The position numbers were made by a program, and so were the translations under genes. The notes under the pieces are model-generated. The model had not been told where the DNA came from, ran no database searches, and worked only from the letters and a program-made list of their open reading frames with translations. Shown here in pieces: positions 22,193 to 41,414 of a stretch of DNA of 64,000 bases; positions within the stretch are counted from its first letter, which is position 1; each line of letters opens with the position of its first letter. Source of the stretch: Bordetella parapertussis (GTDB taxonomy: Bacteria > Pseudomonadota > Gammaproteobacteria > Burkholderiales > Burkholderiaceae_C); NCBI GenBank assembly GCA_945878355.1, contig CAMCTC010000003.1, positions 1 to 64,000 on the forward strand. The letters are read 5' to 3'.

Positions 22193-22292
22193 GTTGGTTT
22201 CAGCCCATCTGCGATCGATTTTTCGATCAGCGCTGCGAAATTCGAGACGATGCGTTCAAGGCGGCAAGTGCCAGGCATTGAGTGCCAGGCCA

Positions 22293-22568
22293 TCAAAACG
22301 GTGGATCGTCGTCATCCGCAGCGTCTGGCCCGGCCGCCGCGTGCACGGCATCGTCCGGTATCGCGGCAGGCCCGGCATCGGCAGTGCCCAAGGCCTGTTC
22401 GAGCGCTTGCTCGACCGCCTCGATCCGGGCCTGGCAATGCTTGTAGGCACTGACCGACTCGGTGACGATCTTGAGCAGGTCGTCGATATTGGGTTCGGAC
22501 TGGTTGCGCAGCGTCTCGGCATGGCGCTGCAGAACGCCGTAAGCGCTGCGGAAAGTCGGTGTGCTCAT
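22293..22568 (-). CDS. xseB: Exodeoxyribonuclease VII small subunit
   Basis: A 91-residue helical subunit that assembles with XseA into exonuclease VII, which degrades single-stranded DNA from both ends. The N-terminal half is the XseB helix pair (SAYGVLQRHAETLRNQ, IDDLLKIVTESVSAYKHCQARIEAVEQALEQAL). The C-terminus is an acidic, Ala/Pro-rich tail. The start codon overlaps the xseA stop by four bases, indicating translational coupling. The sequence is more divergent than in enterobacteria, but position and length fit well. Confidence 0.85.
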   Translation of the reverse strand: MSTPTFRSAYGVLQRHAETLRNQSEPNIDDLLKIVTESVSAYKHCQARIEAVEQALEQALGTADAGPAAIPDDAVHAAAGPDAADDDDPPF

Positions 22569-27183: not shown

Positions 27184-28830
27184 ATGCACAACTCGCCAGA
27201 ACCAGGCCTGAAGGCTTCCATCAACAAGGCCCAGGCCGATCCGCCTGTCGACCTGGTCATCGTCGGCGCTGGCTTCGCCGGCCTGTACATGCTGCACCGC
27301 GCGCGCAGCCTGGGCCTGAGGGCCGTCGTCTATGAGGCCGGCGACGGCGTCGGCGGAACCTGGTACTGGAATCGCTACCCCGGTGCACGCTGCGACGTCG
27401 AGAGCCTGGAGTATTCCTACCAGTTTTCCGACGAACTGCAACAGCAGTGGCATTGGACCGAGCGCTTCGCGCCCCAGTCCGAGATCCTGCGCTACGCCAA
27501 CCATGTGGCCGACCGATTCGATCTGCGGCGCGACATCCACTTCGAGACCCGGGTGCTCAGCGCGCATTTCGATGAAGCGAGTGCCCGCTGGCAGGTCAGT
27601 ACCGACCGCGGCGATGCGATCAGCAGCCAGTTTGTGGTGATGGCCACTGGTTGCTTGTCGTCGACCAACATGCCCGATTTCAAGGGTCTGGACAGCTTCA
27701 AAGGCGAGCGATTCCACACCGGCGCCTGGCCGCATGAGCCGGTCGATTTCAGCGGCAAGCGCGTGGCGGTGATCGGCACGGGTTCGTCAGCGATCCAGTC
27801 GATTCCTATCATCGCCAAGCAGGCTGCCGAACTGACGGTGTTTCAGCGCACCGCGAATTTCTCGATTCCAGCCCGCAACGCAGCGCTCGATCCCGCACAA
27901 GAGGCTGCCATCAAGGCCGAGTACCCGGCTTTCCGGGCACGCAACAGCCTGATGATGGGGGCCTTCGGCGCCAGCACGCCGCGCAACGAGGCACCGGCGC
28001 TGGCCGCCAGCCCCGAGGAGCGCCAGCGACGCTTTGAAGAGCGCTGGACCCGCGGCGGCCTGGGTTTCACGGGCGCATTCAACGATCTGATGATCGACGC
28101 CCAGGCCAACGAACTGGCGGCCGAATATGTTCGCGACAGGATTCGCACCGTCGTCAACGACCCCGTGACCGCCGAACTGTTGGCGCCGCGCCAGGTCATA
28201 GGTTGCAAGCGCATCTGCGTCGACACCGGTTACTACGAGACCTTCAACCAAGCGCATGTCAAGCTCGTGGACATCAGCGCCGGCGGCATCGAAGAGATCA
28301 CAGCCCAAGGCGTGAAGGCCGGTGGACGCGAGTTCGCGGTCGACTGCATCGTGTTCGCGACCGGCTTTGACGCGATGACAGGCTCGCTGCTGAAGATCGA
28401 CATCCGCGGCCGCAACGGACTGGCACTGCGCGAAGCCTGGCGCGCCGGACCACGCACCTACCTCGGGCTGAATGTCGCCGGGTTTCCGAACCTGTTCACC
28501 GTCTCGGGGCCTGGCAGCCCGAGTGTGCTGACCAACATGATCGTCTCGATCGAGCAGCATGTGAACTGGATCGCCGACTGCATCGTCTGGCTGCGCGCCG
28601 GCGGCCAGCGCATGATCGAAGCCGAGCCTCAAGCCCAGGACGCCTGGGTCGGCCATGTCAATGCCGTTGCCGGCACGACCTTGTATCCGACCTGCAACTC
28701 CTGGTACCTTGGCGCCAACGTGCCCGGCAAGACCCGGGTTTTCATGCCCTTGCTAGGCTACCCAGCGTATGTGCAGCGTTGCGAGGAAGTGGTCGCCCGT
28801 GGCTACGAGGGATTCAAGGTCAGCGCCTGA
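27184..28830 (+). CDS. Baeyer-Villiger-type flavin monooxygenase
   Basis: A 548-residue class B flavoprotein monooxygenase that inserts one oxygen atom next to a carbonyl (ketone to ester or lactone) using NADPH and FAD. It has the FAD loop VIVGAGFAGLYMLHRAR (residues about 24-40), the segment GVGGTWYWNRYPGARCDVES typical of cyclohexanone monooxygenase relatives, the fingerprint FxGxxxHxxxWP as FKGERFHTGAWP (residues about 171-182), and the NADP loop VAVIGTGSSAIQ. The ATG at 27184 gives the usual short lead before the FAD loop. It is the first plus-strand gene of a probable catabolic island; the ketone it attacks is unknown. Confidence 0.92.
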   Translation: MHNSPEPGLKASINKAQADPPVDLVIVGAGFAGLYMLHRARSLGLRAVVYEAGDGVGGTWYWNRYPGARCDVESLEYSYQFSDELQQQWHWTERFAPQSEILRYANHVADRFDLRRDIHFETRVLSAHFDEASARWQVSTDRGDAISSQFVVMATGCLSSTNMPDFKGLDSFKGERFHTGAWPHEPVDFSGKRVAVIGTGSSAIQSIPIIAKQAAELTVFQRTANFSIPARNAALDPAQEAAIKAEYPAFRARNSLMMGAFGASTPRNEAPALAASPEERQRRFEERWTRGGLGFTGAFNDLMIDAQANELAAEYVRDRIRTVVNDPVTAELLAPRQVIGCKRICVDTGYYETFNQAHVKLVDISAGGIEEITAQGVKAGGREFAVDCIVFATGFDAMTGSLLKIDIRGRNGLALREAWRAGPRTYLGLNVAGFPNLFTVSGPGSPSVLTNMIVSIEQHVNWIADCIVWLRAGGQRMIEAEPQAQDAWVGHVNAVAGTTLYPTCNSWYLGANVPGKTRVFMPLLGYPAYVQRCEEVVARGYEGFKVSA

Positions 28831-28840
28831 GCGACCCAAG

Positions 28841-28906
28841 GCCGGCCGACGCCGGCCGCCCCCCGTGGGGATCAAGCAAAGTGGCAAAGCCACATTTGCT
28901 TGAGAG
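28841..28906. repeat. 66-bp triple-palindrome intergenic element, copy 1
   Basis: Identical over 66 bases to 43158-43223. It consists of a GCCGGCC-type palindrome, a central CCCCCCGTGGGG block, and a hairpin with arms TCAAGCAAA/TTTGCTTGA extended by GTGGC/GCCAC around an AAA loop, with one bulged A. It starts ten bases after the stop codon of the monooxygenase, like copy 2, which follows another plus-strand stop by ten bases. It may act in termination or mRNA 3'-end stability, or be a REP-type mobile element. Confidence 0.9.
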
Positions 28907-29009
28907 ACTGCGCAGCACCTCGTTTCGTCTGCCACTCGATTGGGATGACCGTATAGTGAGTGGCAGTCGAGACAGCCGATCAACGGCGAAATTTTCCAAG
29001 GAAGAGACC

Positions 29010-30281
29010 ATGAATTCAAAGAACACAACGAAGACGAGCACCGGCCCCGATACCGACAAGGCTTTTTCCGGAGACCGTCGACTGCTGCTGAGCGGCGCGG
29101 CGGCGGCAGCGGGCGCGTTGCTCGCGCCCGGCCTGGCCAACGCGCAGGCAACACCGGGTGTCACAGCCAGCGAAATCAAGATCGGCACGACCACCTCGCT
29201 GAGTGGTCCGGTCTCGGCGCTGGGCACGATCAACCGTGCGCAAGGTGCTTACTTCAAGATGCTCAACGAGCAAGGCGGCATTGCCGGTCGCAAGATCAAC
29301 TACATCATCCTCGATGACGGCTTCGCGCCACCCAAGACACTGGAACAGACGCGGCGCCTGGTAGAACAAGACGAGGTCGCTTTCCTGTTCTCGCAGCTCG
29401 GCACCGGACCCAACTCGGCGATTGTCAAGTACGTCAACGGCCTGGGCATTCCTCATCTGTTTCTGTCGGTCAATGGCGACAAATGGGGTGACTACAAGAG
29501 CTACCCCTGGACCATCCCATTCGCGCCCAGCGCGCGAATCGAGAGCCAGATCTTCGTCAAGTACGCGCTGCAACAGAACCCGAAGTCGAAGTTCGCGATC
29601 CTGTACCAGAACGACGATCTGGGCCGAGACTTCCTGGCCGGCGCAAAAGAAGTGCTGGGCGCGCAGTTCGACAGCATGGCCACCGCGCTGTCCTATGAAG
29701 TCACCGACCCGACCATAGACTCCCAACTGATCACGCTCAAAGCCACCGGCGCTGACGTGCTGATCTCGGGCGTGACCGGCAAGTTCGGCGCGATGGCGAT
29801 CCGGCGTGTCAGCGAAATCGGCTGGAAAGTGATGCACCTGGTCCCGAGCGGTGTGGCGTCGGTCACCTCGACCATTGTGCCGGCCGGCGTTGAAAGGTCT
29901 ATCGGTGTGATCAGTTCGGTCTACACCAAAGACCCCAGCGATCCGGGCTGGGCAGACGACGCCGCGATCAAGACCTACAAGGCTTTCATGGCCAAGTACT
30001 ACCCGGAAGGCAATCCGAACGAGTCGTACAACGCCTATGGCTACATGGTCGCGCAGGTGATGCAGCGAGTGCTCGAACAATGCAACGGCAACTTCACCCG
30101 CGCCAACATCATGGCCCAGGTCAACAACCTGCGCAATCTGGAAAATCAGATGCTGCTGCCGGGCATCAAGGTCAACACCAGCCCGACCAACCACCACCCA
30201 CTGACCCAGATGCAGCTGATGCGCTGGGACGGCAAGCTGTGGCAGCGTTTCGGCAACATCATCGCGGGCTCGAACATCTGA
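29010..30281 (+). CDS. ABC transporter substrate-binding protein (branched-chain amino acid/LivK type)
   Basis: A 423-residue periplasmic binding protein of the Peripla_BP_6 class. The N-terminus carries twin arginines before a hydrophobic Ala-rich stretch (SGDRRLLLSGAAAAAGALLA) and an ANAQA cleavage region, suggesting Tat or Sec export. The mature start ITASEIKIG-like VTASEIKIGTTTSLSGPVSALG is family-typical, as are GGIAGRKINYIILDDGF and PKTLEQTRRLVEQDEV. No permease or ATPase accompanies it on this strand; it may deliver substrate to the Liv-type permease encoded in the same island on the other strand. Such proteins bind many carboxylates and aromatics, so the ligand is open. Confidence 0.9.
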   Translation: MNSKNTTKTSTGPDTDKAFSGDRRLLLSGAAAAAGALLAPGLANAQATPGVTASEIKIGTTTSLSGPVSALGTINRAQGAYFKMLNEQGGIAGRKINYIILDDGFAPPKTLEQTRRLVEQDEVAFLFSQLGTGPNSAIVKYVNGLGIPHLFLSVNGDKWGDYKSYPWTIPFAPSARIESQIFVKYALQQNPKSKFAILYQNDDLGRDFLAGAKEVLGAQFDSMATALSYEVTDPTIDSQLITLKATGADVLISGVTGKFGAMAIRRVSEIGWKVMHLVPSGVASVTSTIVPAGVERSIGVISSVYTKDPSDPGWADDAAIKTYKAFMAKYYPEGNPNESYNAYGYMVAQVMQRVLEQCNGNFTRANIMAQVNNLRNLENQMLLPGIKVNTSPTNHHPLTQMQLMRWDGKLWQRFGNIIAGSNI

Positions 30282-30370
30282 GCCAGATCCGCGGGCCGCG
30301 TGCCAAGCGCGCGGCATGTCCTTGAGCGTGGCGGCCCGTCACGCCCTCCCCTCAGCTCGCCCATCGCACC

Positions 30371-31639
30371 ATGACCACAACCACTTCGCCCGATCCGTCG
30401 CCATCGATGGCCAATGCCTGGGACAGCGACCCCAAGCGACTCGGTTGGATGGTGGGCTCACCGCCGCCGGCCGAAAAACTCGTGTGCTTTGCCGACGGCA
30501 GCATGCGGAAATTTCCGCAAAGCCGGTGGGCTTACAGCAATATGCGGGCCCTGGTGCCGACCAAGACTGTTGCGCGCGGCGCCGCAGCGCTGGCGCTGCC
30601 TCGCGCGGATCGCGACGACCTGGACGCTGTCAGCTTCAGGCCCATCGGCAACCAAGTGCCGATGACCTGGGCGCAATCGATGGACGCCAACCACACCGAT
30701 GGCATCTTGGTGCTGCACCAAGGCCGTGTCGTCGATGAGCGCTACTTTGGCGTGCTAGACGCAGACCGACCGCACATTGCGTTTTCAGTCACCAAATCAT
30801 TCATCGGTACCATCGCCGCGTGCTTGGTGCACGAAGGTCTGCTGGACGACCGCGCACCGGTTTCGCAATACGTCCCGGAACTCGGCCCCAGCGCTTTCGG
30901 TCAAGCCACGGTGCGTCAGTTGATGGACATGACGACAGGGTTGCAGTACAGCGAGGTCTACACCGACCCAAAAGCCGAAATCTGGGACTATGTGCGCGCC
31001 GGCCACATCATGCCAAGGCCTGCGGCTTATCAGGGCCCGCAAAGCTTTTACGAGTACTTGGCGACCGTGAAGCGTCAAGGCAGCCATGGTGAGCAGTTTG
31101 CCTACAAGACCGTCAACACTGACGCGCTGGGCTGGATCATCCAGCGCGTGACCGGGATGTCGCTGGCCGAGAATCTCTCGCAACGGATTTGGCGCCACCT
31201 CGGCGCTGAGCATGACGCTTACATCAGCGTCGACACCACGGGCACCGAGTTTGCTGGCGGCGGGCTCAACACGACCTTGCGCGACCTGGCCCGCTTCGGC
31301 GAGATGATGCGCAACAACGGCCAGGCCGATGGCCGACAACTGATCCCGAAGGCTGTGGTTGATGACATCCGAGCTGGCGCAGACCCTGCCAAATTCAAGC
31401 CTGCGGGCTACCTGACCTTGCCAGGCTGGAGCTACCGCAACATGTGGTGGGTATCGCACAACGCCCACGGCGCTTTCATGGCGCGCGGCGTCCACGGCCA
31501 GGCGCTGTACATCGACCCGACCGCCGAGATGGTCATCGCCCGTTACGCATCGCACCATGTCGCGGGCAACATGGGCATCGATCCACACTCACTGCCGGCC
31601 TACCATGCGATGGCCTTGCACTTGATGCGCCATCGCTGA
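30371..31639 (+). CDS. Serine hydrolase, class C beta-lactamase/6-aminohexanoate-dimer hydrolase-like
   Basis: A 422-residue hydrolase with the beta-lactamase fold. The nucleophile motif S-x-x-K is FSVTKSF (Ser139, Lys142). A Tyr-centred second motif lies in QFAYKTVNTDALGWIIQ, and a FAGGGLNTTLRDLARFG segment follows as in NylB-type hydrolases and EstB esterases. No signal peptide is visible, so it should act in the cytoplasm on an ester, lactone or amide. It follows the binding-protein gene by 89 bp and the monooxygenase upstream, fitting hydrolysis of the ester product. It converges with the citryl-CoA-lyase-like gene, 13 bp away. Confidence 0.87.
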   Translation: MTTTTSPDPSPSMANAWDSDPKRLGWMVGSPPPAEKLVCFADGSMRKFPQSRWAYSNMRALVPTKTVARGAAALALPRADRDDLDAVSFRPIGNQVPMTWAQSMDANHTDGILVLHQGRVVDERYFGVLDADRPHIAFSVTKSFIGTIAACLVHEGLLDDRAPVSQYVPELGPSAFGQATVRQLMDMTTGLQYSEVYTDPKAEIWDYVRAGHIMPRPAAYQGPQSFYEYLATVKRQGSHGEQFAYKTVNTDALGWIIQRVTGMSLAENLSQRIWRHLGAEHDAYISVDTTGTEFAGGGLNTTLRDLARFGEMMRNNGQADGRQLIPKAVVDDIRAGADPAKFKPAGYLTLPGWSYRNMWWVSHNAHGAFMARGVHGQALYIDPTAEMVIARYASHHVAGNMGIDPHSLPAYHAMALHLMRHR

Positions 31640-31652
31640 CGCGCTGCCAGGC

Positions 31653-32450
31653 TCATTCGCCCTGTACTGGCGGCTCATGGAAGTGAGCCGTGGCGCGCGC
31701 CTCGATCGAGTGCCAGATCTCGGCGGCCATCGGCCGGCGTGACTCCTCGAGGATGTGGCCCACCAGGCCGACCGCGCGCGCCATCACGCCCAGGCCCCGG
31801 CAGATCTTCCAATCAAAACCCATCTCGCAGCACAGCGCACCGATGGCTCCTGTCGCATTCATCGGCAAGGGCTTGCCGCTGCGCAGCGTCGCTTCGGTCG
31901 AGATCGCCGTCATCAAGGCCAGATAAGGTCCGTCGAACCCTGTCTCCTTGGCGATCTCCTGCAGGCGCGGTGTGCGCGGATCGATCGGTTTGTGGAAAGG
32001 ATGACCGATACCGGGAACGATGCGTTTTTGGGCTTGAAACGACGACACAATCGGCCCCGCCAAAGCCGCCAGATCAGCATCGGCGAGCGCTGTGGGCATC
32101 GCCTCGGACAGCATCTTGGCAGCCCCCTCGATGCTGCCGACAAAGACGGTCCCCAAGCCATTCAGACCCGCTGCCACCGCGCCCTGCATCGACTCGGGTG
32201 CACCCAGATAAGTCATTCGTGCGACCAAGGCACTCGGCGTGATGCCGTGCTCGACCAGCGTGACGACCATCGCGTTGAACATGCGCGATTCCTGGGCATT
32301 GGGGACACGCCCGGTGAGTTCCATGAATCCCATGTCACCCAAATTGAGGTGACCGAGGATCTCGCTGGGAAAGTCCTTGCCGAAGATCGTGATGCTGCTG
32401 GCGTCGCTCCAGCCGATGTCGGTTCGAATCGGTTTGTCTTGTCTCGTCAT
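31653..32450 (-). CDS. Citryl-CoA lyase-like protein (citrate synthase superfamily)
   Basis: A 265-residue protein of the citrate synthase fold, matching the short proteins annotated as citryl-CoA lyase. It begins TDIGWSDASSITIFGKDFPSEILGHLNLGDMGFMELTGRVP, contains the histidine region PGIGHPFHKPIDPR, and ends with the citrate-synthase-like helix block MGFDWKICRGLGVMARAVGLVGHILEE. At the position of the catalytic Asp in citrate synthase (NVDFYSG) it has NATGAIG, so the usual acid/base is missing. A C-C lyase acting on a CoA thioester is possible, but real citryl-CoA cleavage is unproven. Last gene of a four-gene minus-strand operon. Start ATG 32450. Confidence 0.82.
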   Translation of the reverse strand: MTRQDKPIRTDIGWSDASSITIFGKDFPSEILGHLNLGDMGFMELTGRVPNAQESRMFNAMVVTLVEHGITPSALVARMTYLGAPESMQGAVAAGLNGLGTVFVGSIEGAAKMLSEAMPTALADADLAALAGPIVSSFQAQKRIVPGIGHPFHKPIDPRTPRLQEIAKETGFDGPYLALMTAISTEATLRSGKPLPMNATGAIGALCCEMGFDWKICRGLGVMARAVGLVGHILEESRRPMAAEIWHSIEARATAHFHEPPVQGE

Positions 32451-32506
32451 GGGGTTTGGTGCTTGAAACGAATGGTGCAATCGATGAATCGATGGACGGC
32501 GCTGGT

Positions 32507-32899
32507 TCAGCGAACCGGCCCGAACACCGGCGCATGCCGGCCTTCCGGTGTGGCCCGCATCTGCACCTGCACAGGCATGTCGACATGCACCGCATCGAAC
32601 TCGCAATCGACGATGTTGCTCATCAACAGCAAGCCCTCTTCGATCTCGACATAGGCCAGCACATAAGGTGATTTCGGATGGCGAACGACCGAATACGAGT
32701 AGACCTTGCCGCGCCCTGATGCGGCGATCCACTCCAGGTCGGTGTCATGGCAGAACGGGCAGAAGGCACGCGGATGCCAATGCACTTTGGTGCAGCGCTT
32801 GCAGCGCGGCAGCATGAACACGCCGTTCGCTGCCGCCGCCCAGAACGGCAGCGTCTCCGGGAAAGCAGCGACGTAGGGGTCTTTGTCGAGGTCGCTCAT
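32507..32899 (-). CDS. DUF35 OB-fold/rubredoxin-like zinc-ribbon protein (thiolase partner)
   Basis: A 130-residue protein with an N-terminal helix, a zinc ribbon (CKRCTKVHWHPRAFCPFC, four Cys, residues about 33-50) and a C-terminal OB-fold (VYSYSVVRHP...YVLAYVEIEEGLLLMSNIV). DUF35 proteins bind CoA thioesters or acyl chains and form complexes with thiolases or SCPx-type aldolases, as in steroid side-chain breakdown and archaeal mevalonate synthesis. Its start codon overlaps the thiolase stop (TGATG), a strong sign that the two act as a complex. Start ATG 32899; a GTG directly upstream is also possible. Confidence 0.92.
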   Translation of the reverse strand: MSDLDKDPYVAAFPETLPFWAAAANGVFMLPRCKRCTKVHWHPRAFCPFCHDTDLEWIAASGRGKVYSYSVVRHPKSPYVLAYVEIEEGLLLMSNIVDCEFDAVHVDMPVQVQMRATPEGRHAPVFGPVR

Positions 32900-34068
32900 C
32901 ACATTCTCTCCAACACGACGGTAGCGTGCGCATGACCGATGCCCAGCACCATGCCGGGGCCGCTGGCAATGGCGACGCCGCAGTCCTTGACCTGGACCGC
33001 AGGGTGGGCCTCGCCGCGCAACTGGCGCACGGCTTCAATGACTTTGGTGATGCCACCGCGGTTCTGCGGATGGTTGTTGCACAGGCCGCCGCCGTCGGTA
33101 TTCCACGGCAATTTGCCCACGCCAGAGATCAGGTTGCCTTCTTCGACGAAGCGCCCGCTCTGGCCCTTGGCGCAAAAGCCCAGATCTTCGAGTTGCATCA
33201 GCACCATGATGCTGAAGTTGTCGTAGATCGACGCATAGTGCACGTCAGCAGGTTTCAGGCCTGCCTGCCCGAATGCCCTGGCACCCGAGACCGCGGCGCC
33301 GGTCTCGAGCATGTCGCAGCGGCCGGCCTCGTTGGTTCTGACCGTCTCCCCGAATCCTCTGACACGCACCAGCGGGCGCTTCAAAGTCCGGGCCACTGCG
33401 GCACTGACGAGGACGAGCGCGCCGCCACCGTCGGTGATCACACAGCAGTCCAGGCGACGCAATGGATCGGCCACCAGTGGAGACGCGAGCACGTCCTCGA
33501 CCGTGTAAACCTTGCGCAGCAGCGCGTTCGGGTTGTGCTGCGCGTGCCGCGAGGCCGAGACCTTGACCCAGGCCATTTGCTCGGGCGTCGTGCCGTACGC
33601 GTGCATGTGGCGGCGTGCGTAGTTGGCGTACAGACCCGCGACGGTCCAGCCATAGGGCGCCTCCCAGGCCGAGGCGGGACGATCGGTCGGCAGTACGCGG
33701 ATCTCGGTCCCGGTGGCCTGGCCGCTGCTGCGCGGCTTGCCGGCCAAGGTGATCAGCGCCACCGAGCACCGGCCGTCGGCGATGGCCTGCGCAGCTTTGC
33801 CAACATGGCTGATGTACGAGCAGCCGCCCGACTCGGTGCCGTCGACCTGTTTGACCTTCAGGTTCATGTAGTCGACCATCAAGGCCGGAATGCCGCCGGG
33901 CGCATCGGCGGCACAGAAATAACCATCGACGTCGGCAAAGCTCAGCCCGGCGTCGTCCAGCGCGCCGCGGGCGCACTCTGCGTGCAGTTGCGCGATCGAC
34001 TTGTCGGGCGCATAACGTAGCGGATGCTCGTAAGCGCCGGCGATGCAGGCGGTGGTGTCAGGGTTCAT
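32899..34068 (-). CDS. SCPx/lipid-transfer-type thiolase domain protein
   Basis: A 389-residue thiolase-fold protein of the acetyl-CoA acetyltransferase/SCPx group. The N-terminal nucleophile position is Cys83 in ESGGCSYISH; the His region is NNHPQNRGGITK. The C-terminus ends IGHAHATVVL without the CxG motif of classical thiolases, as in lipid-transfer-protein types such as Ltp2, some of which work as retro-aldolases with a DUF35 partner. With the overlapping DUF35 gene it likely forms such a two-component enzyme, cleaving or forming a C-C bond in a CoA thioester. Thiolysis is the alternative. Second gene of the minus-strand operon. Confidence 0.88.
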   Translation of the reverse strand: MNPDTTACIAGAYEHPLRYAPDKSIAQLHAECARGALDDAGLSFADVDGYFCAADAPGGIPALMVDYMNLKVKQVDGTESGGCSYISHVGKAAQAIADGRCSVALITLAGKPRSSGQATGTEIRVLPTDRPASAWEAPYGWTVAGLYANYARRHMHAYGTTPEQMAWVKVSASRHAQHNPNALLRKVYTVEDVLASPLVADPLRRLDCCVITDGGGALVLVSAAVARTLKRPLVRVRGFGETVRTNEAGRCDMLETGAAVSGARAFGQAGLKPADVHYASIYDNFSIMVLMQLEDLGFCAKGQSGRFVEEGNLISGVGKLPWNTDGGGLCNNHPQNRGGITKVIEAVRQLRGEAHPAVQVKDCGVAIASGPGMVLGIGHAHATVVLERM

Positions 34069-34105
34069 GGGCGTCTTTGCTGAGGTTGAGGGGCTCTGTA
34101 CGCCA

Positions 34106-35341
34106 TCATGCCTTGGAATCGATCACGGCAGCACTGACCATCGTTCGCAATTCGCGACGGATAGGGTACAGGCTGGAGGGTCTGAACTGGGTCAGCAAGA
34201 CGACGCAGAGGTCCTCGACCGGATCGATCCAGAAAGCCGTCGACGCCGCACCGCCCCACCAGTATTCGCCCAGCGAGCCCGAGATGCCGGTGCGGGCGAC
34301 ATCGGTGGTCATCGCAAAACCCAGGCCGAAACCCACTCCCCGGTAGGTCGCTTCGGAGAACATCGACACCGACATATCGGCCAGGTCGCGTCCGCCCGGC
34401 AGGTGGTTCGACCGCATCAACGCCAGCGTCTTGGGCCCGAGCAGCCGCACCGCGTTGGGCCCGGTCCCCGATACACCGCCCAGGCGCAGCGCTTCGCAAA
34501 AACGCATGTAGTCGGCCGCCGTGCTGACCAGACCGCCACCGCCCGAGGGCGCTGACGGCGGTTCACGGAAGCTGGGGCCCACGACCTGCGGCGTCAGCCG
34601 GCCTTCGGCCGCTTGGACATAGCACTGCGCGAAACGAGCGGCCTTGTCATCGGTCACATGAAAAGCGGTGTCGACCATGCCGAGCGGCCCGAGGATTCGC
34701 TGCTGCAGAAAATCCTGAAACGGCATGCCAGATATCTTGCCGACCAGATAGCCCAGCACGTCGGTGGCCACCGAGTAGTTCCAGGCGCTGCCCGGCGAGA
34801 ACTCCAGCGGCATCTTGCCCAGCGCTGAGATGAAGTCGCCCAGCCCGCCGGTCTGCTCGGACGGCTCGCAACGACTCTTGCGGTACGCTGAATCGACATT
34901 GGTGCGGTTCTGGAAGCCGTAGGTCAGGCCCGATGTGTGGCGCAGCAAATCGATCATTCGCATCGGCGAATCAGTGGGCCGGGTCTGGAAGGCACCGGGC
35001 AGACCTGCGACGTACACACCCAGATCAAGCCACTCGGGGATGAACCGGGTCACCGGATCTTCCAGCGCCACCAAGCCCTCCTCGACCAACATCATGAATG
35101 CCACGCTGGTGATCGGCTTGGTCATCGAGTAGATGCGGACGATGCTGTCCTCGGTCATCGGCGCGCCGGTCTCGAGCGAGGCCTTGCCGAGCACCGACTG
35201 GTGAACGAGCTGACCTTGACGCGTGATCTGCAATTGCGCGCAAGGCAGCTTGCCCGATTCGATGTACTTGTCGGCGATAAAGCGGTCGATGCGCGCCAGG
35301 CGCTGCGAGCACATGCCCAGGGATTCGGGTTTGACGGTCAT
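34106..35341 (-). CDS. Serine hydrolase, class C beta-lactamase/EstB-like esterase
   Basis: A 411-residue hydrolase with S-x-x-K motif YSMTKPITS (Ser72, Lys75), the Tyr motif NYSVATDVLGYL and a Gly-rich GGGGLVSTAADYMRFCEAL. This pattern is closer to EstB/lovastatin-type esterases than to true beta-lactamases. No export signal is visible. It leads the minus-strand operon hydrolase-thiolase-DUF35-lyase and belongs to a different subfamily from the plus-strand hydrolase at 30371, so the island carries two distinct enzymes of this fold. ATG 35341 gives the usual start (MTVKPESLGMCSQRLARID); an in-frame start 19 codons upstream is less likely. Confidence 0.9.
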   Translation of the reverse strand: MTVKPESLGMCSQRLARIDRFIADKYIESGKLPCAQLQITRQGQLVHQSVLGKASLETGAPMTEDSIVRIYSMTKPITSVAFMMLVEEGLVALEDPVTRFIPEWLDLGVYVAGLPGAFQTRPTDSPMRMIDLLRHTSGLTYGFQNRTNVDSAYRKSRCEPSEQTGGLGDFISALGKMPLEFSPGSAWNYSVATDVLGYLVGKISGMPFQDFLQQRILGPLGMVDTAFHVTDDKAARFAQCYVQAAEGRLTPQVVGPSFREPPSAPSGGGGLVSTAADYMRFCEALRLGGVSGTGPNAVRLLGPKTLALMRSNHLPGGRDLADMSVSMFSEATYRGVGFGLGFAMTTDVARTGISGSLGEYWWGGAASTAFWIDPVEDLCVVLLTQFRPSSLYPIRRELRTMVSAAVIDSKA

Positions 35342-35675
35342 TGAAGGTCCTCGAAATGTGAGCGCGGCCACAGGCCGCAAGCGGGCCGCGCCAGCCAAGC
35401 CTATGGCGATGCTCGGCGATCCACCGAGTCAACGTCGGTCACCCGGGCGACATGAAATGCGCGCGGTTTGACCGCCTTCGCGGTGCTGCCAGGCGATGCA
35501 GTAGACATGATGGCTGCAGCCCAAGAAACGCAGAGATCGCGTGGGATTTCGCGTCAAACTGGTCAGCGAGATCGCGCCCGCCAACACCCGTCAACACCCG
35601 GTTTGGCGCCAGCTTGCCCGAAAATGCTTGCAGCAGCGCCAGCTCGCACGCTGGCCAAACCAGGCTTGCCGCGCG
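35342..35675. other. 334-bp intergenic region upstream of the hydrolase operon
   Basis: No convincing gene. Short hairpins are visible near 35363-35389 (GCGGCC/GGCCGC) and near 35420-35436 (CTCGG/CCGAG). It must hold the promoter of the minus-strand hydrolase operon and the end of the liv operon, but I could not identify clear -35/-10 hexamers. It is the longest non-coding stretch inside the catabolic island and would be the natural site for operators. Confidence 0.5.
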
Positions 35676-36638
35676 TCAGCGACCGCGCCGCAGCAAGCGC
35701 TGCAGCGGCGGCAACAGCCCCATCAAACCTTGCGGGAAGAAACCCAGGATCACGATCAGCACGGCGCCGAGAATGATCTTGTCGACATTGCCGCCGAGCG
35801 AGAAGAACTTCTCCTGCACCAGCACCATCGCGGTCGCAATCAAGGGCCCGAGCAGCTGGCGCCGGCCGATCAACACCACGGCGGTCAGCATCAGGATCAG
35901 GAAGTAGTTCTCGAGCACATCGGCGCTGACATAAGCGCGTTGGTAAGCGTAGAGCCAGCCCGCCGCGGCACTGATAGGCGCCGAGAACAGGAAGACCTGC
36001 AGCCGCACGCGCGCAGGGTCGGTGCCCGCCATTGTCGCCAGACGCGGGTTCAGGTGGACCATGATCGCCGCTGCGCCGAGCAGCGAGCGGCGGAATCGGT
36101 CGATCAGGTAGACCGTGGCCGCCAGCAACGCGAAGGCATAGGGCCAGAGCTCGCGGTCGTTGCGCGCGGTGAGTTGCAGGCCGCCGACCGACAGGTCGAG
36201 CAAGGGGATGCCGCGGATGCCATCCGAGCCGCCGAGAAAAGCCCAGTTCGACGCGACCGTGATCGCGACCACACCGACCGCGTAAGTGACCAGCGAGAAG
36301 ACGAATTCACGCAAACGCAAGGTCACCAGACCGATCGCGGCGGCGAACAACAGCGCAATGACGATCGTCGCCGCCAGCGTGACCCAGGAGCCCAGGCCGG
36401 CGCGGGTCGACAGCCAGGCGGTGGTGTAACTGCCGACGGCGAAGAACACCGTGTGCGCGAGGCTGACCTCGCCGAGATCGGAGACGATCACGTCCAGCCC
36501 GTAGGCCATCACCGCGAAGATCGCGATCAGCACGGCAGCGCTGTAGACCGCGCCACTGCCGCCCAGCAGCGTGGGCGCTGCGAACACCAGCAGGCCGAAC
36601 AGCGGCAGCGTCAGTCGCTTGAGCCAGTGGCGCTGCAT
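35676..36638 (-). CDS. livM: Branched-chain-type ABC transporter permease (LivM)
   Basis: A 320-residue inner-membrane permease of the BPD_transp_2 family with about nine or ten hydrophobic segments. The LivM signature is ALAHTVFFAVG-like VSLAHTVFFAVGSYTTAWL (residues about 60-80), and the EAA-like loop DRFRRSLLGAAAIMVHLNPRLATMAGTDPARVRL precedes the last helices. Its ATG overlaps the livH stop by one base (ATGA), so translation is coupled. It is the last gene of the five-gene importer operon. Typical ligands are branched amino acids, but in catabolic islands such importers often take aromatic or alicyclic acids. Confidence 0.92.
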   Translation of the reverse strand: MQRHWLKRLTLPLFGLLVFAAPTLLGGSGAVYSAAVLIAIFAVMAYGLDVIVSDLGEVSLAHTVFFAVGSYTTAWLSTRAGLGSWVTLAATIVIALLFAAAIGLVTLRLREFVFSLVTYAVGVVAITVASNWAFLGGSDGIRGIPLLDLSVGGLQLTARNDRELWPYAFALLAATVYLIDRFRRSLLGAAAIMVHLNPRLATMAGTDPARVRLQVFLFSAPISAAAGWLYAYQRAYVSADVLENYFLILMLTAVVLIGRRQLLGPLIATAMVLVQEKFFSLGGNVDKIILGAVLIVILGFFPQGLMGLLPPLQRLLRRGR

Positions 36639-37510
36639 CAGTGCACACCCGATGTCGACCCGGCGCTCAGGCCGCCGGGTCGCAGCACCAGCACCGCGAT
36701 CAGCACCAGAAAGCAAGCTGCCGTGGTGTAGGCCGGCGAGACCAGCGCCCCGAACAAGGCCGTGAACAGGCCCAGCGCGACGCCAGCGACATAACTGCCT
36801 GTGACGCTGCCGATGCCGCCGAGCACAACGACGACGAAGGTCATGATGACCTCCTCGAAGCCCATCGAGGTCAGGATCGGTGTGCGCGGCGCGACCATGC
36901 CGGCAGCGAAAGCCACTGCCGCACCCTCGAAAGCGAAAACGCCGTAATAGACCCGACGCACGTTCACGCCAGCCAACTGCGCGAGCTTGGGGTCTTCGGC
37001 AACCATGCGAACCAGCCTGCCGATGCGCGTGCCGTCGAGCAGCCATTTCAGGCCGATAAAGACCGCGATCGCCACCAGCACGATGGCCAGGTCTTGTTGC
37101 GTCAACCACAGCTCGCCGAGCTTGATCTCGCTGCGAGACAGCGCGGTGTCGAGGATCTGGCCGGTCGAGCCGAAGACCAGCGCCGCACCGCCTTGCAGCA
37201 CATAGCCGAAGCCCAGCGTCATGATCATGATCGAGACCAGGTTCTGCTCGAAAGTGGCCTTGAGCATCACGCGCTGCATCAGCAAGCCGAACAGCGCACC
37301 GATGCCCATCGCGATCGGCACTGCCAGCGCATAAGGCACGCCAGCCTTGACCACCGCCCACCATGTGACGAAAGCGCCCAGCATGTACATCTGGCCGTGG
37401 CCGAAATTGACCAGCCTGGCCACCCCCAGCAGCAACGTCCAGCCTATCGCTACCAGCGCGTAGGCGTGGCCGAGCACCAGGCCGTTGATCAGTTGTTGGG
37501 TCAGGTTCAT
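36638..37510 (-). CDS. livH: Branched-chain-type ABC transporter permease (LivH)
   Basis: A 290-residue permease partner of LivM. The start MNLTQQLINGLVLGHAYALVAIGWTLLLGVARLVNFGHG is the classical LivH N-terminus, here with H-A-Y in place of the more common G-S-Y/M. The loop TRIGRLVRMVAEDPKLAQLAGVNVRRV contacts the ATPase. About eight transmembrane segments are visible. The start overlaps livF by four bases and the end overlaps livM by one, making a tight operon. Confidence 0.93.
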   Translation of the reverse strand: MNLTQQLINGLVLGHAYALVAIGWTLLLGVARLVNFGHGQMYMLGAFVTWWAVVKAGVPYALAVPIAMGIGALFGLLMQRVMLKATFEQNLVSIMIMTLGFGYVLQGGAALVFGSTGQILDTALSRSEIKLGELWLTQQDLAIVLVAIAVFIGLKWLLDGTRIGRLVRMVAEDPKLAQLAGVNVRRVYYGVFAFEGAAVAFAAGMVAPRTPILTSMGFEEVIMTFVVVVLGGIGSVTGSYVAGVALGLFTALFGALVSPAYTTAACFLVLIAVLVLRPGGLSAGSTSGVH

Positions 37511-38238
37511 GCGTGGGCTCCGAGATAGGCCTGGGCGATGCGTGGGTCGCTGCCCATCTGCGCCGCAGGCCCTTCGAGCACGACGCGGCCGCGCTCGAGC
37601 AGCACCAGCCGGTCGACCACCTCCAGCGCCGCGCGGACGTTTTGCTCCACAAGCAGGATCGCCAGGCCCGACGCCGCCAGCTTGCGCAGCGTCTGCAGCA
37701 CTTGCGACACCAACATCGGCGCCAAGCCGATCGACGGCTCGTCGAGCAGCAACAACTGCGGACCCATCATCAGCGCGCGGCCTATGCCCAGCATCTGGCG
37801 TTCGCCGCCAGACAGTTGCGATCCCAGGTGTTGACGACGCTCGAGCAGCCGTGGGAAGAGTTCGAAGATGTCGTCTCGCGAATAAACCCGCTGACCGGCC
37901 GTAGCCCGCGGCATGAAAGTCGTCGTCAGGTTGTCCTCAACCGTCATGCGGCCGAACACCAGCCTGCCCTCGGGCACCAAGGCCAGGCCGGCGCGCACCC
38001 GCTCGTGCGCTGACCAGTCAGCGATGCGCTGGCCGGAAAGCTCGACCTCGCCGCGCACGACGGGGTCGCCACGCGACCAGCCGATCAGCGCGTTGACCAG
38101 CGTCGACTTGCCGGCACCGTTGGCGCCGACCACGCCGACCATCTCACCACGCGACACGCTCAGCGTGTGCACGTCGACCGCGCGGTTGCCGGCGTAATCG
38201 ACCTGCAGGTCGCGAACTTGGAGCAGCGCGTCGCTCAT
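37507..38238 (-). CDS. livF: Branched-chain-type ABC transporter ATP-binding protein (LivF)
   Basis: A 243-residue ATPase of the LivF type. Walker A is GANGAGKST (residues about 35-43), the signature motif LSGGERQMLGIGRAL, Walker B LLLLDEPSIGLAP, and the switch His is in the LLVEQNVRAAL region as Gln-Asn typical of LivF. It overlaps livG by four bases upstream and livH by four bases downstream. All catalytic motifs are intact. Confidence 0.94.
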   Translation of the reverse strand: MSDALLQVRDLQVDYAGNRAVDVHTLSVSRGEMVGVVGANGAGKSTLVNALIGWSRGDPVVRGEVELSGQRIADWSAHERVRAGLALVPEGRLVFGRMTVEDNLTTTFMPRATAGQRVYSRDDIFELFPRLLERRQHLGSQLSGGERQMLGIGRALMMGPQLLLLDEPSIGLAPMLVSQVLQTLRKLAASGLAILLVEQNVRAALEVVDRLVLLERGRVVLEGPAAQMGSDPRIAQAYLGAHA

Positions 38239-39017
38239 GCCGCTTTGCCCAGGTAGGCTTCGAGCACGCGCGGGTCTTGCTGTACCTGCTGCGGCGTGCC
38301 GTAAGCGAGTTGGCGGCCCAGGTCGAGCACGCAGATGCGGTCGGCCACGGCCATGATCAGGTCCATGTGGTGTTCGATCACGACCAGCGCGATGCCTTCA
38401 CGCTTGAGGCTGAGCAGCAGGTCGACCAGCCGCGCCATGTCGTCGCCACCCAGCCCGGCCGCCGGCTCGTCGAGCAGCAAGACCTGGGCGCCGTCGCCAT
38501 AGGCCAGCGCGATCGACAACATGCGCTGAACGCCATAAGGAATCTCCTTGGGGCTGAGCCCGTGATAGGCCACCGGCACGCCAAAGCGCAACAACTGTTG
38601 CGCCGCGTAGTCGCAAGCCGCCGCACGCTTGCGCGCCGCACCCGCCGGGTTCAGCACGCTGCCGAGCAAGCCTGGGTGAGCGCGCTTGCCGAGCACGGCC
38701 ACCAGGTTGTCGAGCACGCTGAGGTCGTCGAAGAATGCGTTTTGCTGGAAAGCACGCTTGAGCCCGAGCTCGGCCAGGCCGTGGGCTCGAACCTGGCTGA
38801 CATCACGACCCTGCAGCCAGACGCTGCCCAGGCGAGACACCAGCGCCGTCACCGCGTCGTAGCAAGAGCTCTTGCCTGCGCCGTTCGGGCCGATGATGCC
38901 GAGCAACTCGCCAGGGTGGACCTCCCAGCCCACGTCGTCGAGCGCCACCAGCGCGCCGTAGCGAACACCTAGGCCTTGGACGCGAAGCGCTGGCTGGGCT
39001 TGGGCTGGCGAGGACAT
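38235..39017 (-). CDS. livG: Branched-chain-type ABC transporter ATP-binding protein (LivG)
   Basis: A 260-residue ATPase of the LivG type. Walker A is GPNGAGKSS, with Ser in place of the second Thr/Ser position and C-Y following. Walker B is LLLDEPAAGLGGDD and the switch His is in VIEHHMDLIM. The signature motif is degenerate: PYGVQRMLSIALAYG where LivG usually has PYGQQRRLEIARAL. ATG 39017 fits the family length; upstream codons overlap the binding-protein gene and are unlikely. It begins 13 bp after the binding-protein stop. Confidence 0.91.
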   Translation of the reverse strand: MSSPAQAQPALRVQGLGVRYGALVALDDVGWEVHPGELLGIIGPNGAGKSSCYDAVTALVSRLGSVWLQGRDVSQVRAHGLAELGLKRAFQQNAFFDDLSVLDNLVAVLGKRAHPGLLGSVLNPAGAARKRAAACDYAAQQLLRFGVPVAYHGLSPKEIPYGVQRMLSIALAYGDGAQVLLLDEPAAGLGGDDMARLVDLLLSLKREGIALVVIEHHMDLIMAVADRICVLDLGRQLAYGTPQQVQQDPRVLEAYLGKAA

Positions 39018-39030
39018 CGATGCGCCCTGC

Positions 39031-40167
39031 TTACTTCTGCACCACGATCTTGCCGGCCTGCACCGTGAACAGATAGTGCTTGGACCCCAGCTGGCCGTTC
39101 GGCTCGAAGGCGACGTCACCCATCAGCGTGCCCTTGAACTTGCCGCCGCGGATGCGCTTGGCGATCGCCTCGCGGTCCAGCGTCTTGAGCTCGTTGGCTG
39201 CCATCGCCCAGATCTGCAGCGCCGCCGCACCCAGCGCCATGAACTTGTCCGGCGTGTACTTAAACATCTCCAGGCTCTTGGCAACAAATCGCTGGTTCGC
39301 CGGGTTGGACGAAAAAGGCTCGATCTGCGGGAAATAGATGTCGGCGCCGACCAAGCCGTTGGCGGCGTCACCAGCGACCTCGATCACGCTGGGCGCGACC
39401 GTGCCCACGGCAGCGACCAGCACGCCCGGCAACCTGGCTTGGCGCGCCTGGCGGATGGTGGCCGGCATGCCCAGGCCTTCGTTGGCGTTGATCGCGACCG
39501 TGAGATCGGGCTTGGCGGCTTGCACATTGGTCAGCGCAACGCGGAAGTCGGCCTGCGCGAACGGGAACTTCTCCTCGGCCACCTTCTCGTAGACGTGGTT
39601 CAAGCGCTTGAGTTCGGCCTCGATAGAGGCTTGCGCGCCATTGCCGTAGGCGTCGTTCTGGGTCAGGAAAGCGACCCGCTTGGCCTTGGCGATGTTGGCG
39701 ATGTAGTTGGCGATCACCGCGCCGTCCTGCGAGTTCGAGCTGTTGAGCCGAATGGCCAAGGGGTTGCCCTCGCCCGACAGGATCGGGTCGGCCTTGGAGA
39801 TCGCGGTGATGTCGAGCACACCGCCGCGCGCGATCACCGGCTGCATCGCCAGCGTGACCGGGCTGTTCCAGCCTTCGATGATCACTGACACGCCCAGGCT
39901 CATCAACTCGGTGGCGCGCGAGACGCCGACGGCCGGTGTCGACTCGTCGTCGCGCGAGACGATCTCGATCTTGCGGCCGAGCACGCCACCGCTCTCGTTG
40001 ATCAGCGCGGCCATGGTCTGGATCGCGTTCGTCACATGCTGGCCCTGCGGCCCGGCGCCGCCCGACAGCGGCAGGATCGTGCCAACCTTGATCGTCTGGG
40101 CCTGGACCAGCGCGGGCGCGCCCAGTCCCAAGGCCAGGGTGGCGGCGAGGGTGCGTATCAGTTTCAT
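39031..40167 (-). CDS. ABC transporter substrate-binding protein (LivK-like) of the liv operon
   Basis: A 378-residue periplasmic binding protein. A clear Sec signal peptide (MKLIRTLAATLALGLGAPALVQAQ, cleavage near residue 23) precedes the mature start TIKVGTILPLSGGAGPQGQHVTNAIQ. The two lobes show INESGGVLGRKIEIVSRDDESTP and KRVAFLTQNDAYGNGAQASIE. It is the first gene of the importer operon (binding protein, LivG, LivF, LivH, LivM) and has a good ribosome-binding site (GGAGA eight bases before ATG 40167). It is not closely similar to the other binding protein at 29010, so the island has at least two distinct ones. Confidence 0.92.
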   Translation of the reverse strand: MKLIRTLAATLALGLGAPALVQAQTIKVGTILPLSGGAGPQGQHVTNAIQTMAALINESGGVLGRKIEIVSRDDESTPAVGVSRATELMSLGVSVIIEGWNSPVTLAMQPVIARGGVLDITAISKADPILSGEGNPLAIRLNSSNSQDGAVIANYIANIAKAKRVAFLTQNDAYGNGAQASIEAELKRLNHVYEKVAEEKFPFAQADFRVALTNVQAAKPDLTVAINANEGLGMPATIRQARQARLPGVLVAAVGTVAPSVIEVAGDAANGLVGADIYFPQIEPFSSNPANQRFVAKSLEMFKYTPDKFMALGAAALQIWAMAANELKTLDREAIAKRIRGGKFKGTLMGDVAFEPNGQLGSKHYLFTVQAGKIVVQK

Positions 40168-40433
40168 AGAAGTCTCCAGATGGGAAGAGGCGAGCGATTC
40201 GGGACGGGCAGCCGACCACGCGCTGTGAGGTCAGGCGCGCAGTCGAGGCTAACTTTTAAAAAGAGCGACCTTATCTGCTGCCCGCCATACCATACCGCAT
40301 GCTGCGCCGACAGCGGCAGACTCTAGAGCCGAAGAGATCCTCTGCTCATCAGGGTAAACACCCGAAAACCACAGCTGTCAACAGGCCTGCAGCGCGCCGA
40401 CCGCGGCCCGAGCCTTCGTCACGGCGCACAGCC
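40168..40433. promoter_or_regulatory. 266-bp leader region of the liv operon with a candidate -35 element
   Basis: Reading on the minus strand, a perfect TTGACA (positions 40381 to 40376) is followed after 17 bases by TTTACC, a poor -10 match, giving a possible promoter with a leader of about 190 bases. A short run of A/T (near 40254-40262) stands out from the GC-rich surroundings. No gene is seen here. Confidence 0.3.
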
Positions 40434-41414
40434 TCATTCGGCCTTGAGGTCGAGCCGTTTGATCAGGTCGCCCCACATCTTGCTCTGTTGCTGGGTGAAG
40501 GCCAGCAGATCGGCCGGCGTCGCGCTGGTCTTGCTCTCGTTGCCCAGCTTGCGCATCGCCTCGCCAAAGCTGGCAGATGTCGTGATCCTGTGGATCGCTG
40601 CGGCAAGCTTGTCGACGATGGGCTTGGGTGTGCCGACCGGCGCAAACACGCCATACCAGGTCTCGCCAAGCACTGAGGGGTATCCCAACTCGCGGAAGGT
40701 CGGCACGGTGGGCATCAAGGCCTGGCGCTCGGCGCTGAGCACGGCCAGTGCGCGGTACTGCCCGGCGTTGACATTGGGCACGGCGCTGGTCAGCGCCTCG
40801 ACATTGCTGTCGATCACGCCGGCGATCATGTCCATCGTCGCAGGCGCAGCGCCCTTGTAGTGGACCTCGGTGAACTTGATGTCCAGACCGTTGGCGATCA
40901 TCTCGCCCAGCAGGTGCACCATGCTGCCCTGGCCGTTGGTAGCGTTGTTGATCTTGCCTGGGTTGGCCTTGGCGTAGCTGACGTACTCGCGCAGTGTCTT
41001 GGCCGGAAAATCCTTCTTGACCACGAAAGCGAATGGCACGGTGCACAAGGCGGCGACAGGCGCGAAGTCTTCCGACTTTTACGACAGCTTGTCGTTGAGG
41101 TGCGGGTTGGTCGTGAAGGTGGTGCCTGCCGACAGCAGCAAGGTGTAGCCGTCCTTGGGCGTGCGGGCAACGAAGGACGCGCCGATCGCCGTGGCGGCGC
41201 CGGCACGGTTGTCGATGACAAAGACGGTGCCGAGTTCCTCACGCAGGCGCTGCGCGAGTTGGCGCCCCACCACGTCGCTGGTGCCGCCCGGCGGATACGG
41301 CACGACCAGCGTCACCGGCTTGGTCGGCCAGACTGCCGGGTCTGCGGTCTGCGCTTGGGCGCCCAGCGCCAAAAGCGCGCAGGCCGCGGCCATCAGTCTC
41401 AATCGATTTCGCAT
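40434..41414 (-). pseudogene. Bug/TctC-type tricarboxylate-transporter binding protein, interrupted by a stop codon
   Basis: Read through one stop, this is a 326-residue tripartite-tricarboxylate-transporter substrate-binding protein with signal peptide (MRNRLRLMAAACALLALGAQAQ), the Bug N-terminus WPTKPVTLVVPYPPGGTSDVVGRQLAQRL, IDNRAGAATAIGASFVA and an intact C-terminal lobe with NSNVEALTSAVPNV-type segments. Codon 112 is TAA (41081-41079) in HLNDKLS-stop-KSEDFAPVAA. The reading frame continues without a shift, and homologues have Tyr there (TAC or TAT), so one base change explains it. The downstream part could only be made by re-initiation and would lack a signal peptide. A base-calling error is the alternative. 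Confidence 0.88.

Follow-up and report, generated by a model that had tools for sequence, protein, structure and literature searches.

A conserved, probably catabolic gene island in Bordetella parapertussis that combines a Baeyer–Villiger monooxygenase, a predicted DUF35-dependent retro-aldolase, a citrate-synthase-fold lyase and a Liv importer

For the degradation of alicyclic and branched carboxylic acids, to our knowledge, the biochemistry is known and few genes are. In Arthrobacter CA1, cyclohexaneacetic acid is reportedly degraded (in work of 1982 by Ougham and Trudgill) by cleavage of a hydroxylated acyl-CoA (EC 4.1.3.35) to a cyclic ketone, which passes to a cyclohexanone monooxygenase and then to a lactone hydrolase; we know of no gene for this cleavage pathway. 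The AcmAB pathway of Gordonia TY-5 pairs a Baeyer–Villiger monooxygenase (BVMO), acetone monooxygenase, with an ester hydrolase, methyl acetate hydrolase, and is not known to involve CoA enzymes or an importer. IpfE, from the ibuprofen pathway of Rhizorhabdus wittichii, is a DUF35 protein. The IpfDE thiolase has been linked to a retro-aldol reaction that yields propionyl-CoA (PMC9195938), and in the thiolase-fold aldolases Ltp2–ChsH2(DUF35) and Sal–Shy(DUF35), which cleave steroid side chains, Tyr294 of Ltp2 and Tyr302 of Sal are the catalytic base (PMC12329534). Here we describe a gene island at positions 27184-41414 of a 64,000-nucleotide stretch of Bordetella parapertussis DNA (contig CAMCTC010000003.1; hereafter the window, meaning the whole stretch analysed), for which these are among the closest known systems.

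Gene calls and Pfam, NCBIfam and PDB searches place 13 genes in the island, each with a family match of E ≤ 3e-10 or better, and their coordinates and strands agree with those of an earlier note on this DNA. One set, on the plus strand and ending at 31639, comprises the BVMO, a lone LivK-like binding protein and the NylB-type hydrolase. The other, a minus-strand operon (5' to 3': Bug, LivK, LivG, LivF, LivH, LivM, esterase-like hydrolase, thiolase-like protein, DUF35, lyase), ends at 31653, and the two converge across 31640-31652. The genes, in order of position, with lengths in amino acids (aa), are:

27184-28830 (+): type I BVMO, 548 aa, on the phenylacetone/steroid monooxygenase side (PDB phmmer search, fingerprint, and the ratio of nonsynonymous to synonymous divergence, dN/dS)
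29010-30281 (+): binding protein of the LivK-like Peripla_BP_6 kind, carrying a Tat-like signal, its own permeases not encoded alongside (Peripla_BP_6 E 1.2e-50; N-terminus RRLLLSGAAAAAG)
30371-31639 (+): beta-lactamase-fold serine hydrolase of the 6-aminohexanoate-dimer-hydrolase (NylB) type, 422 aa (PDB 4gb7 E 2.7e-72, 1wyc E 7.4e-65; SVTK at 139)
31653-32450 (-): citrate-synthase-fold protein of the "citryl-CoA lyase" family (NF004868), 265 aa (NF004868 341.6 bits, cut-off 193; PDB 6hxp E 1.6e-36; Thr200)
32507-32902 (-): DUF35 / Zn-ribbon OB-fold partner, about 131 aa (ChsH2(DUF35) 6ok1_B E 6e-17; C4 zinc motif C-x2-C-x10-C-x2-C)
32899-34068 (-): thiolase-fold protein of subfamily PRK08142 (NF006010), 389 aa, a predicted DUF35-dependent retro-aldolase (NF006010 672 bits, cut-off 462)
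34106-35341 (-): beta-lactamase-fold serine hydrolase, class-VIII-esterase-like, 411 aa (PDB esterase 7pp3 E 1.9e-109; SMTK at 72)
35676-36638 (-): LivM-type permease (BPD_transp_2 E 1e-24)
36638-37510 (-): LivH-type permease (BPD_transp_2 E 7.5e-38)
37507-38238 (-): LivF-type ATPase (ABC_tran E 8.2e-26; LivF is the best NCBIfam match)
38235-39017 (-): LivG-type ATPase (ABC_tran E 5.5e-18, and BCA_ABC_TP_C)
39031-40167 (-): LivK-type binding protein (Peripla_BP_6 E 4.4e-61; dN/dS 0.032)
40434-41414 (-): Bug (TctC) binding protein gene with an in-frame TAA (TctC E 1.1e-45 for the piece downstream of the stop)

Given the family matches and the low dN/dS values reported below, the island is more than a chance set of genes. 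The earlier note had called it a probable catabolic island with a dedicated Liv importer; it is real, conserved and probably catabolic, and a complete Liv (HAAT) importer (one binding protein, two permeases and two ATPases; LivKGFHM, 40167-35676) lies in one operon. The note's remarks that the exact gene set corresponds to no named pathway, and that regulators and CoA ligases are missing from the island, also hold: no such pathway was found in the open-licence PMC literature, and the 50 window frames given to Pfam (some of which are not real genes, the smaller frames having been left out) contained no match to a CoA ligase, a CoA-transferase or a regulator. None of the 13 island genes encodes a CoA-activating enzyme, nor did the Pfam scan reveal an alcohol or aldehyde dehydrogenase among them. 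Activation encoded elsewhere, as the note had suggested, fits with the neighborhoods of the lyase and thiolase relatives in other organisms, which often lie beside CaiB-type CoA-transferases or AMP-binding ligases.

Our reading of the island, tentative and at somewhat less than an even chance, is that it serves as a unit in the catabolism of an alicyclic or branched carboxylic acid in CoA-activated form, in which carbon–carbon cleavage comes first and the BVMO acts second. Uptake of the acid would fall to the Liv importer, together with the lone binding protein, and enzymes encoded elsewhere (for activation, dehydrogenation and hydration) would convert the acid to a beta-hydroxyacyl-CoA; the substrate itself and these steps before cleavage are guesses. 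The beta carbon is possibly tertiary, in which case ordinary beta-oxidation would stop there. The thiolase-like protein, together with DUF35, would carry out retro-aldol cleavage with Tyr282 as the base, to yield a ketone and either acetyl- or propionyl-CoA, and the citrate-synthase-fold lyase would perform a like cleavage on the same or a related intermediate. The BVMO would then insert oxygen beside the ketone carbonyl. Hydrolysis of the resulting ester or lactone by the two serine hydrolases would yield an acid plus an alcohol. Retro-aldol cleavage at a hydroxylated ring carbon would yield a cyclic ketone as the BVMO substrate and, from it, a lactone as the hydrolase substrate. This cleavage-first order, the one we prefer, employs every enzyme and makes an external ketone unnecessary. 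Gene content, synteny, selection, family membership and the identity of the residues are observed; the retro-aldol chemistry, the sequence of reactions, the catabolic direction and the class of substrate are inferred. The order of cleavage, BVMO and lactone hydrolase is that of the cyclohexaneacetic acid pathway, a likeness in proposed reaction order only.

The thiolase-like protein was compared with its relatives in an alignment of 38 rows (37 of 38 loci, one with <80% coverage having been dropped, plus the window). When aligned to solved structures, the position of the thiolase nucleophile Cys is occupied by Gly82 in all 38 rows, and Sal likewise has Gly there. The adjacent Cys83 is nearly invariant among the closest 20 aligned sequences (the window and 19 homologues, out of 120 listed), in a region where the structure model is unreliable. 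Position 284, where the HDCF-type motif has the second Cys, holds Ser in 28 rows, Asn in eight (including Asn284 of the window) and Cys in two. Tyr282 and Asp283 of a YDxF motif are present in 38 of 38 rows, and Tyr282 aligns with Tyr294 of Ltp2 and Tyr302 of Sal (where the motif reads YDCY). His333 (37 rows, with a gap in the other) stands at the position of Ltp2 Tyr344 and Sal Gln352. The protein therefore has Asn284 and His333, as against His296/Tyr344 in Ltp2 or Cys304/Gln352 in Sal, and lacks the second catalytic residue (Tyr344 or Cys304) of the Ltp2 and Sal subfamilies proper. Foldseek ranked the uncharacterised structure 4u4e first, followed by Sal (9myr) and Ltp2 (6ok1), of the Sal–Shy and Ltp2–ChsH2 aldolases. 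The DUF35 gene (32902-32507) overlaps the end of the thiolase gene, and its product is closest to ChsH2(DUF35), E 6e-17.

Shared with the Ltp2 and Sal systems are the thiolase fold, a DUF35 partner gene, the Tyr of YDxF, and the lack of a Cys at the aligned nucleophile position (PMC12329534); the window DUF35 differs in being a separate C4-type protein. IpfD/IpfE resemble the window pair in that a thiolase is associated with the retro-aldol loss of an acyl-CoA side chain, but they act after a ring dioxygenase, and the passages cited mention neither a BVMO nor a Liv importer (PMC9195938; this likeness is one of described function). The earlier name, SCPx-type thiolase, holds for the fold and the database label; as a statement of activity it is not supported, the aligned catalytic positions (Gly82 and position 284) being changed, although Cys83 may be a displaced nucleophile. 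On its residues, the protein is predicted to form, with DUF35, a retro-aldolase.

The lyase belongs to its family by fold: the NF004868 score lies well above the cut-off, and 6hxp is the closest PDB entry. Its alignment has 48 rows (47 of 48 loci, the partial L047 having been dropped, plus the window). In all of them Thr200 is found in place of the Asp that 6hxp and the ATP-citrate lyase chain 6qcl carry in an NVDG motif; we take this Asp to be the catalytic one of citrate synthase and citryl-CoA lyase. The same Thr is found in 7 of 7 plasmid relatives examined (53-64% identity). His68 and His150 (the catalytic His of the PGxGH motif) are each present in 48 of 48 rows, so that fold, family and His150 are held in common with citryl-CoA lyase and the citrate synthase domain of ATP-citrate lyase, whereas the Asp is not. 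A paralogue of 26% identity in Variovorax WDL1 retains the NVDG Asp; on plasmid 4 of that strain (L222, 3275-4060) this "citryl-CoA lyase" adjoins a PRK08142-like thiolase (62%). The name "citryl-CoA-lyase-like" applied by the earlier note is correct for fold and database label but not supported as an activity, a catalytic residue having changed. For the corresponding residue of ATP-citrate lyase, ACLY D1026, the cited account treats a role as base versus an allosteric role as disputed (PMC10115795), and loss of the Asp alone is therefore no proof of a different reaction.

The BVMO scores almost equally against phenylacetone monooxygenase (PAMO, 1w4x; 627.6 bits) and steroid monooxygenase (4ap1; 622.6 bits) in a phmmer search of PDB, well above the cyclohexanone monooxygenases, the next family reaching 477.5 bits. 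Residues 16-545 align to PAMO 1w4x (E 1.7e-187), the type I fingerprint FxGxxxHxxxW(P/D) is present as FKGERFHTGAWP at residue 172, and the Rossmann motifs are GAGFAG at 28 and GTGSSA at 198. Both hydrolases carry the SxxK catalytic motif (SVTK 139 in 30371-31639; SMTK 72 in 34106-35341). The hydrolase at 34106-35341 is similar to class VIII esterases; its best NCBIfam match is the methyl acetate hydrolase AcmB, at 157 bits against a cut-off of 550. The island therefore resembles AcmAB in combining a BVMO with a beta-lactamase-fold ester hydrolase, and differs in that this score falls far below the AcmB cut-off.

A scan of public genomes with the lyase alignment gave 48 loci, on which the island proteins were mapped by tblastn (E ≤ 1e-15, coverage ≥ 0.3). 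The joint plus- and minus-strand set is complete or nearly so at two of these, with 91-99% identity: in genome G001 (L003) the whole block is kept in order, and in genome G002 (L001) LivH through BVMO is kept, up to the contig end. In G001 the flanks are kept as well, from gamma-glutamyltranspeptidase on to nuclease-like, hydrolase, HAD and PALP genes. Purifying selection is evident in all 12 genes examined (Bug left out), with dN/dS of 0.017-0.113 (0.065 and 0.100 for the BVMO), and the dS of the island matches that of its flanks. From the conserved flanks, the low dN/dS and the flank-like dS, we infer that the island has been vertically kept and is functional in a small lineage, rather than being a recent arrival. 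A third genome, G003, has on a short contig (L002) only the thiolase, DUF35 and lyase (85-97% identity), followed by a gene that reads as an epoxide-hydrolase-like alpha/beta hydrolase and not by the NylB-type hydrolase/BVMO set. At this site (L002, 2530-5414) that gene is accompanied by frames whose translations resemble a LigB-type dioxygenase and an HpaF-type isomerase, a different partner set. Among 21 genomes of the genus of G001, some perhaps incomplete, a BVMO of >63% identity occurs only in G001 and G002, a thiolase of >69% only in G001-G003, and the other 18 gave no near-identical copy. Because the cassette stands alone in G003 and near-identical copies are missing from these 18, the halves are separable and their union is lineage-specific. 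G002 encodes two BVMOs, 97% and 86% identical to that of the window; the latter (L214, 6608-8020) lies on a different contig and in a different setting, adjoining what reads as an acyl-CoA-dehydrogenase-like gene truncated by the contig end.

Island pieces were also found apart from one another. At the other 45 lyase loci a BVMO was matched in four (L021, L027, L028, L036) and a thiolase in two (L036, L045). At L036 a thiolase (70%)–DUF35 (50%) pair is divergent from a BVMO (39%)–enoyl-CoA hydratase pair, and the lyase (58%) lies about 4 kb off, past genes for RF3 and a Fic-domain protein. At L021 (3701-6692) the lyase (81%) and a BVMO (48%) accompany a LysR gene; as the contig, assigned to Sphingomonadaceae by binning, measures just 6.9 kb, a binning error or contamination is possible. 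A BVMO was matched in one of 14 thiolase-centred regions (the L036 contig again) and a lyase in two; none of six BVMO-centred regions had a thiolase or lyase. A single strand of the Pseudosulfitobacter plasmid pSMR1-4 carries genes for a lyase relative (62.8%), a CoA-transferase, an acyl-CoA dehydrogenase, MaoC, two further dehydrogenases (succinate-semialdehyde and alcohol), an alpha/beta hydrolase, a BVMO (44%) and a glucose-1-dehydrogenase-type dehydrogenase, with 8.4 kb between lyase and BVMO; six other plasmid lyase loci gave no BVMO match. In Cupriavidus necator N-1 pBB2 (L228, 9998-14040) a lyase relative, CaiB and subunits of isopropylmalate dehydratase form a single run, a hint that the substrates there may be tertiary hydroxy acids resembling citramalate. 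In Variovorax VAI-C a thiolase (79.5%) is accompanied by DUF35, an AMP-binding protein, Bug proteins and dehydrogenases. Lyase relatives lie beside CaiB, MaoC, SDR and acyl-CoA dehydrogenase genes, and clusters of open reading frames near the 48 lyase loci include Bug/TctC at 30 loci, CaiB at 21, LysR at 12, SDR at 12 and enoyl-CoA hydratase at 11 (rough counts, the frames having been chosen mechanically and annotated by representative).

Across 399 genomes of the order (thiolase E ≤ 1e-140, BVMO E ≤ 1e-170, lyase E ≤ 1e-80), the thiolase is present in 37, the BVMO in 32 and the lyase in 22. Thiolase and BVMO occur together in 19 genomes against 2.97 expected (odds ratio 28, p 2.4e-14), lyase and thiolase in 10 against 2.04 (p 4e-6), and lyase and BVMO in four against 1.76 (p 0.089), p values that are too small because relatedness and genome size are uncontrolled. 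LigB, present in 196 of the 399, served as a control for versatile genomes: it accompanies the thiolase in 25 (18.2 expected, odds ratio 2.3), the lyase in 15 (10.8 expected, odds ratio 2.3) and the BVMO in 27 (15.7 expected, odds ratio 6.3), and inside LigB-positive genomes the thiolase–BVMO odds ratio is still 20.

It is a substantial, though still minority, possibility that two separate catabolic units became neighbors by chance in one lineage: on the plus strand, one leading from ketone to ester to products, and on the minus strand, one for CoA esters, importer included. Several observations weigh on that side and against a single unit: the halves are convergent on opposite strands, the G003 cassette is followed by its alpha/beta hydrolase and other genes, the second G002 BVMO is on another contig in a different setting, and local linkage elsewhere is rare. 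The joining of the halves is not widespread, and its very narrow occurrence (2 of 48 lyase loci; 2 of 21 genus genomes) weakens the case for a unit. Against chance adjacency, both relatives whose sequence spans the plus/minus junction retain it, with dS of about 0.2 and 0.4, the BVMO and thiolase co-occur across genomes, and the lyase-hydrolase-BVMO run of pSMR1-4 is on a single strand. The earlier note had staked its proposal on conserved co-occurrence of the two sets in related genomes; G001 and G002, its nearest relatives, do show it with gene order preserved (G001 throughout, G002 to the contig end), so this ground for rejecting the proposal falls away, but it was found in those two only.

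The order given in the earlier note is explained by the same genes: an imported ketone would be oxidised by the BVMO and the ester or lactone hydrolysed; the resulting acid, once activated, would be split by a true thiolase together with an enzyme of the citryl-CoA lyase type. As worded it is not supported, and we regard it as unlikely for the window, with Gly at the nucleophile Cys position of the thiolase, Thr at the catalytic Asp of the lyase, and neither an alcohol nor an aldehyde dehydrogenase matched in the island; cleavage first is judged likelier. Two points nonetheless tell for the ketone-first order and against ours. Cys83 may be a displaced nucleophile, and on pSMR1-4 the aldehyde and alcohol dehydrogenases stand between the hydrolase and the CoA genes, as would fit conversion of a lactone to a hydroxy acid followed by oxidation and activation; on that plasmid the ketone-first order may even be the likelier one. 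A steroid or bile-acid side-chain module like that of Ltp2 or Sal, with a steroid monooxygenase acting after it, is very improbable despite the likeness of the thiolase-like/DUF35 pair to Ltp2–ChsH2 and Sal–Shy and the near-equal BVMO scores for 4ap1 and PAMO, given that the steroid ring-opening marker KshA_C was matched in none of G001-G003 (genomes that are possibly incomplete; 3 of the 12 genomes searched gave weak matches), that the MaoC–DUF35 fusion (Shy) is absent from the island, and that the YDxF residues are unlike those of both classes.

What is new in the cleavage-first proposal is the combination of known families with altered active sites. In its fullest form, which we consider doubtful, the PRK08142 "thiolase" would be a third class of DUF35-dependent retro-aldolase (Tyr282 and His333), and PRK06224.1-5 an Asp-less lyase of non-citryl beta-hydroxyacyl-CoAs; with the BVMO they would make up an unrecorded cleave-to-ketone route for alicyclic or branched acids and provide candidate genes for EC 4.1.3.35-type orphan reactions. 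If so, two widespread families bear names that misstate their reaction (protein searches returned at least 7998 thiolase relatives at E ≤ 0.001 and at least 5437 lyase relatives, other subfamilies included), and the thiolase-lyase pair with the BVMO would offer testable genes for the degradation of naphthenic, terpenoid or similar acids. If the gene content alone is right, what remains is a catabolic island specific to one lineage and of ordinary interest.

The Gly and Tyr residues of the thiolase and the Thr of the lyase are points absent from the earlier note, as is the stop in the Bug gene. There, a TAA at 41079-41081 interrupts the minus-strand frame after 111 codons in a reading frame otherwise open to 326 aa, and G001 (L003) has an uninterrupted 326-aa frame at the syntenic position; the interruption may represent a pseudogene or a sequence error. 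Outside the island, most of the frames scanned resemble ordinary chromosomal genes, such as those for an efflux pump, KDO transferase, phosphomannomutase and helicases. Just to the left of the island, the frames at 26098-27051 (-) and 22191-23327 (+) are fast-evolving (dN/dS 0.29-0.37) and without a Pfam match. Farther to the right, the protein at 52868-53977 (-) contains the Stealth conserved regions CR1, CR2 and CR4.

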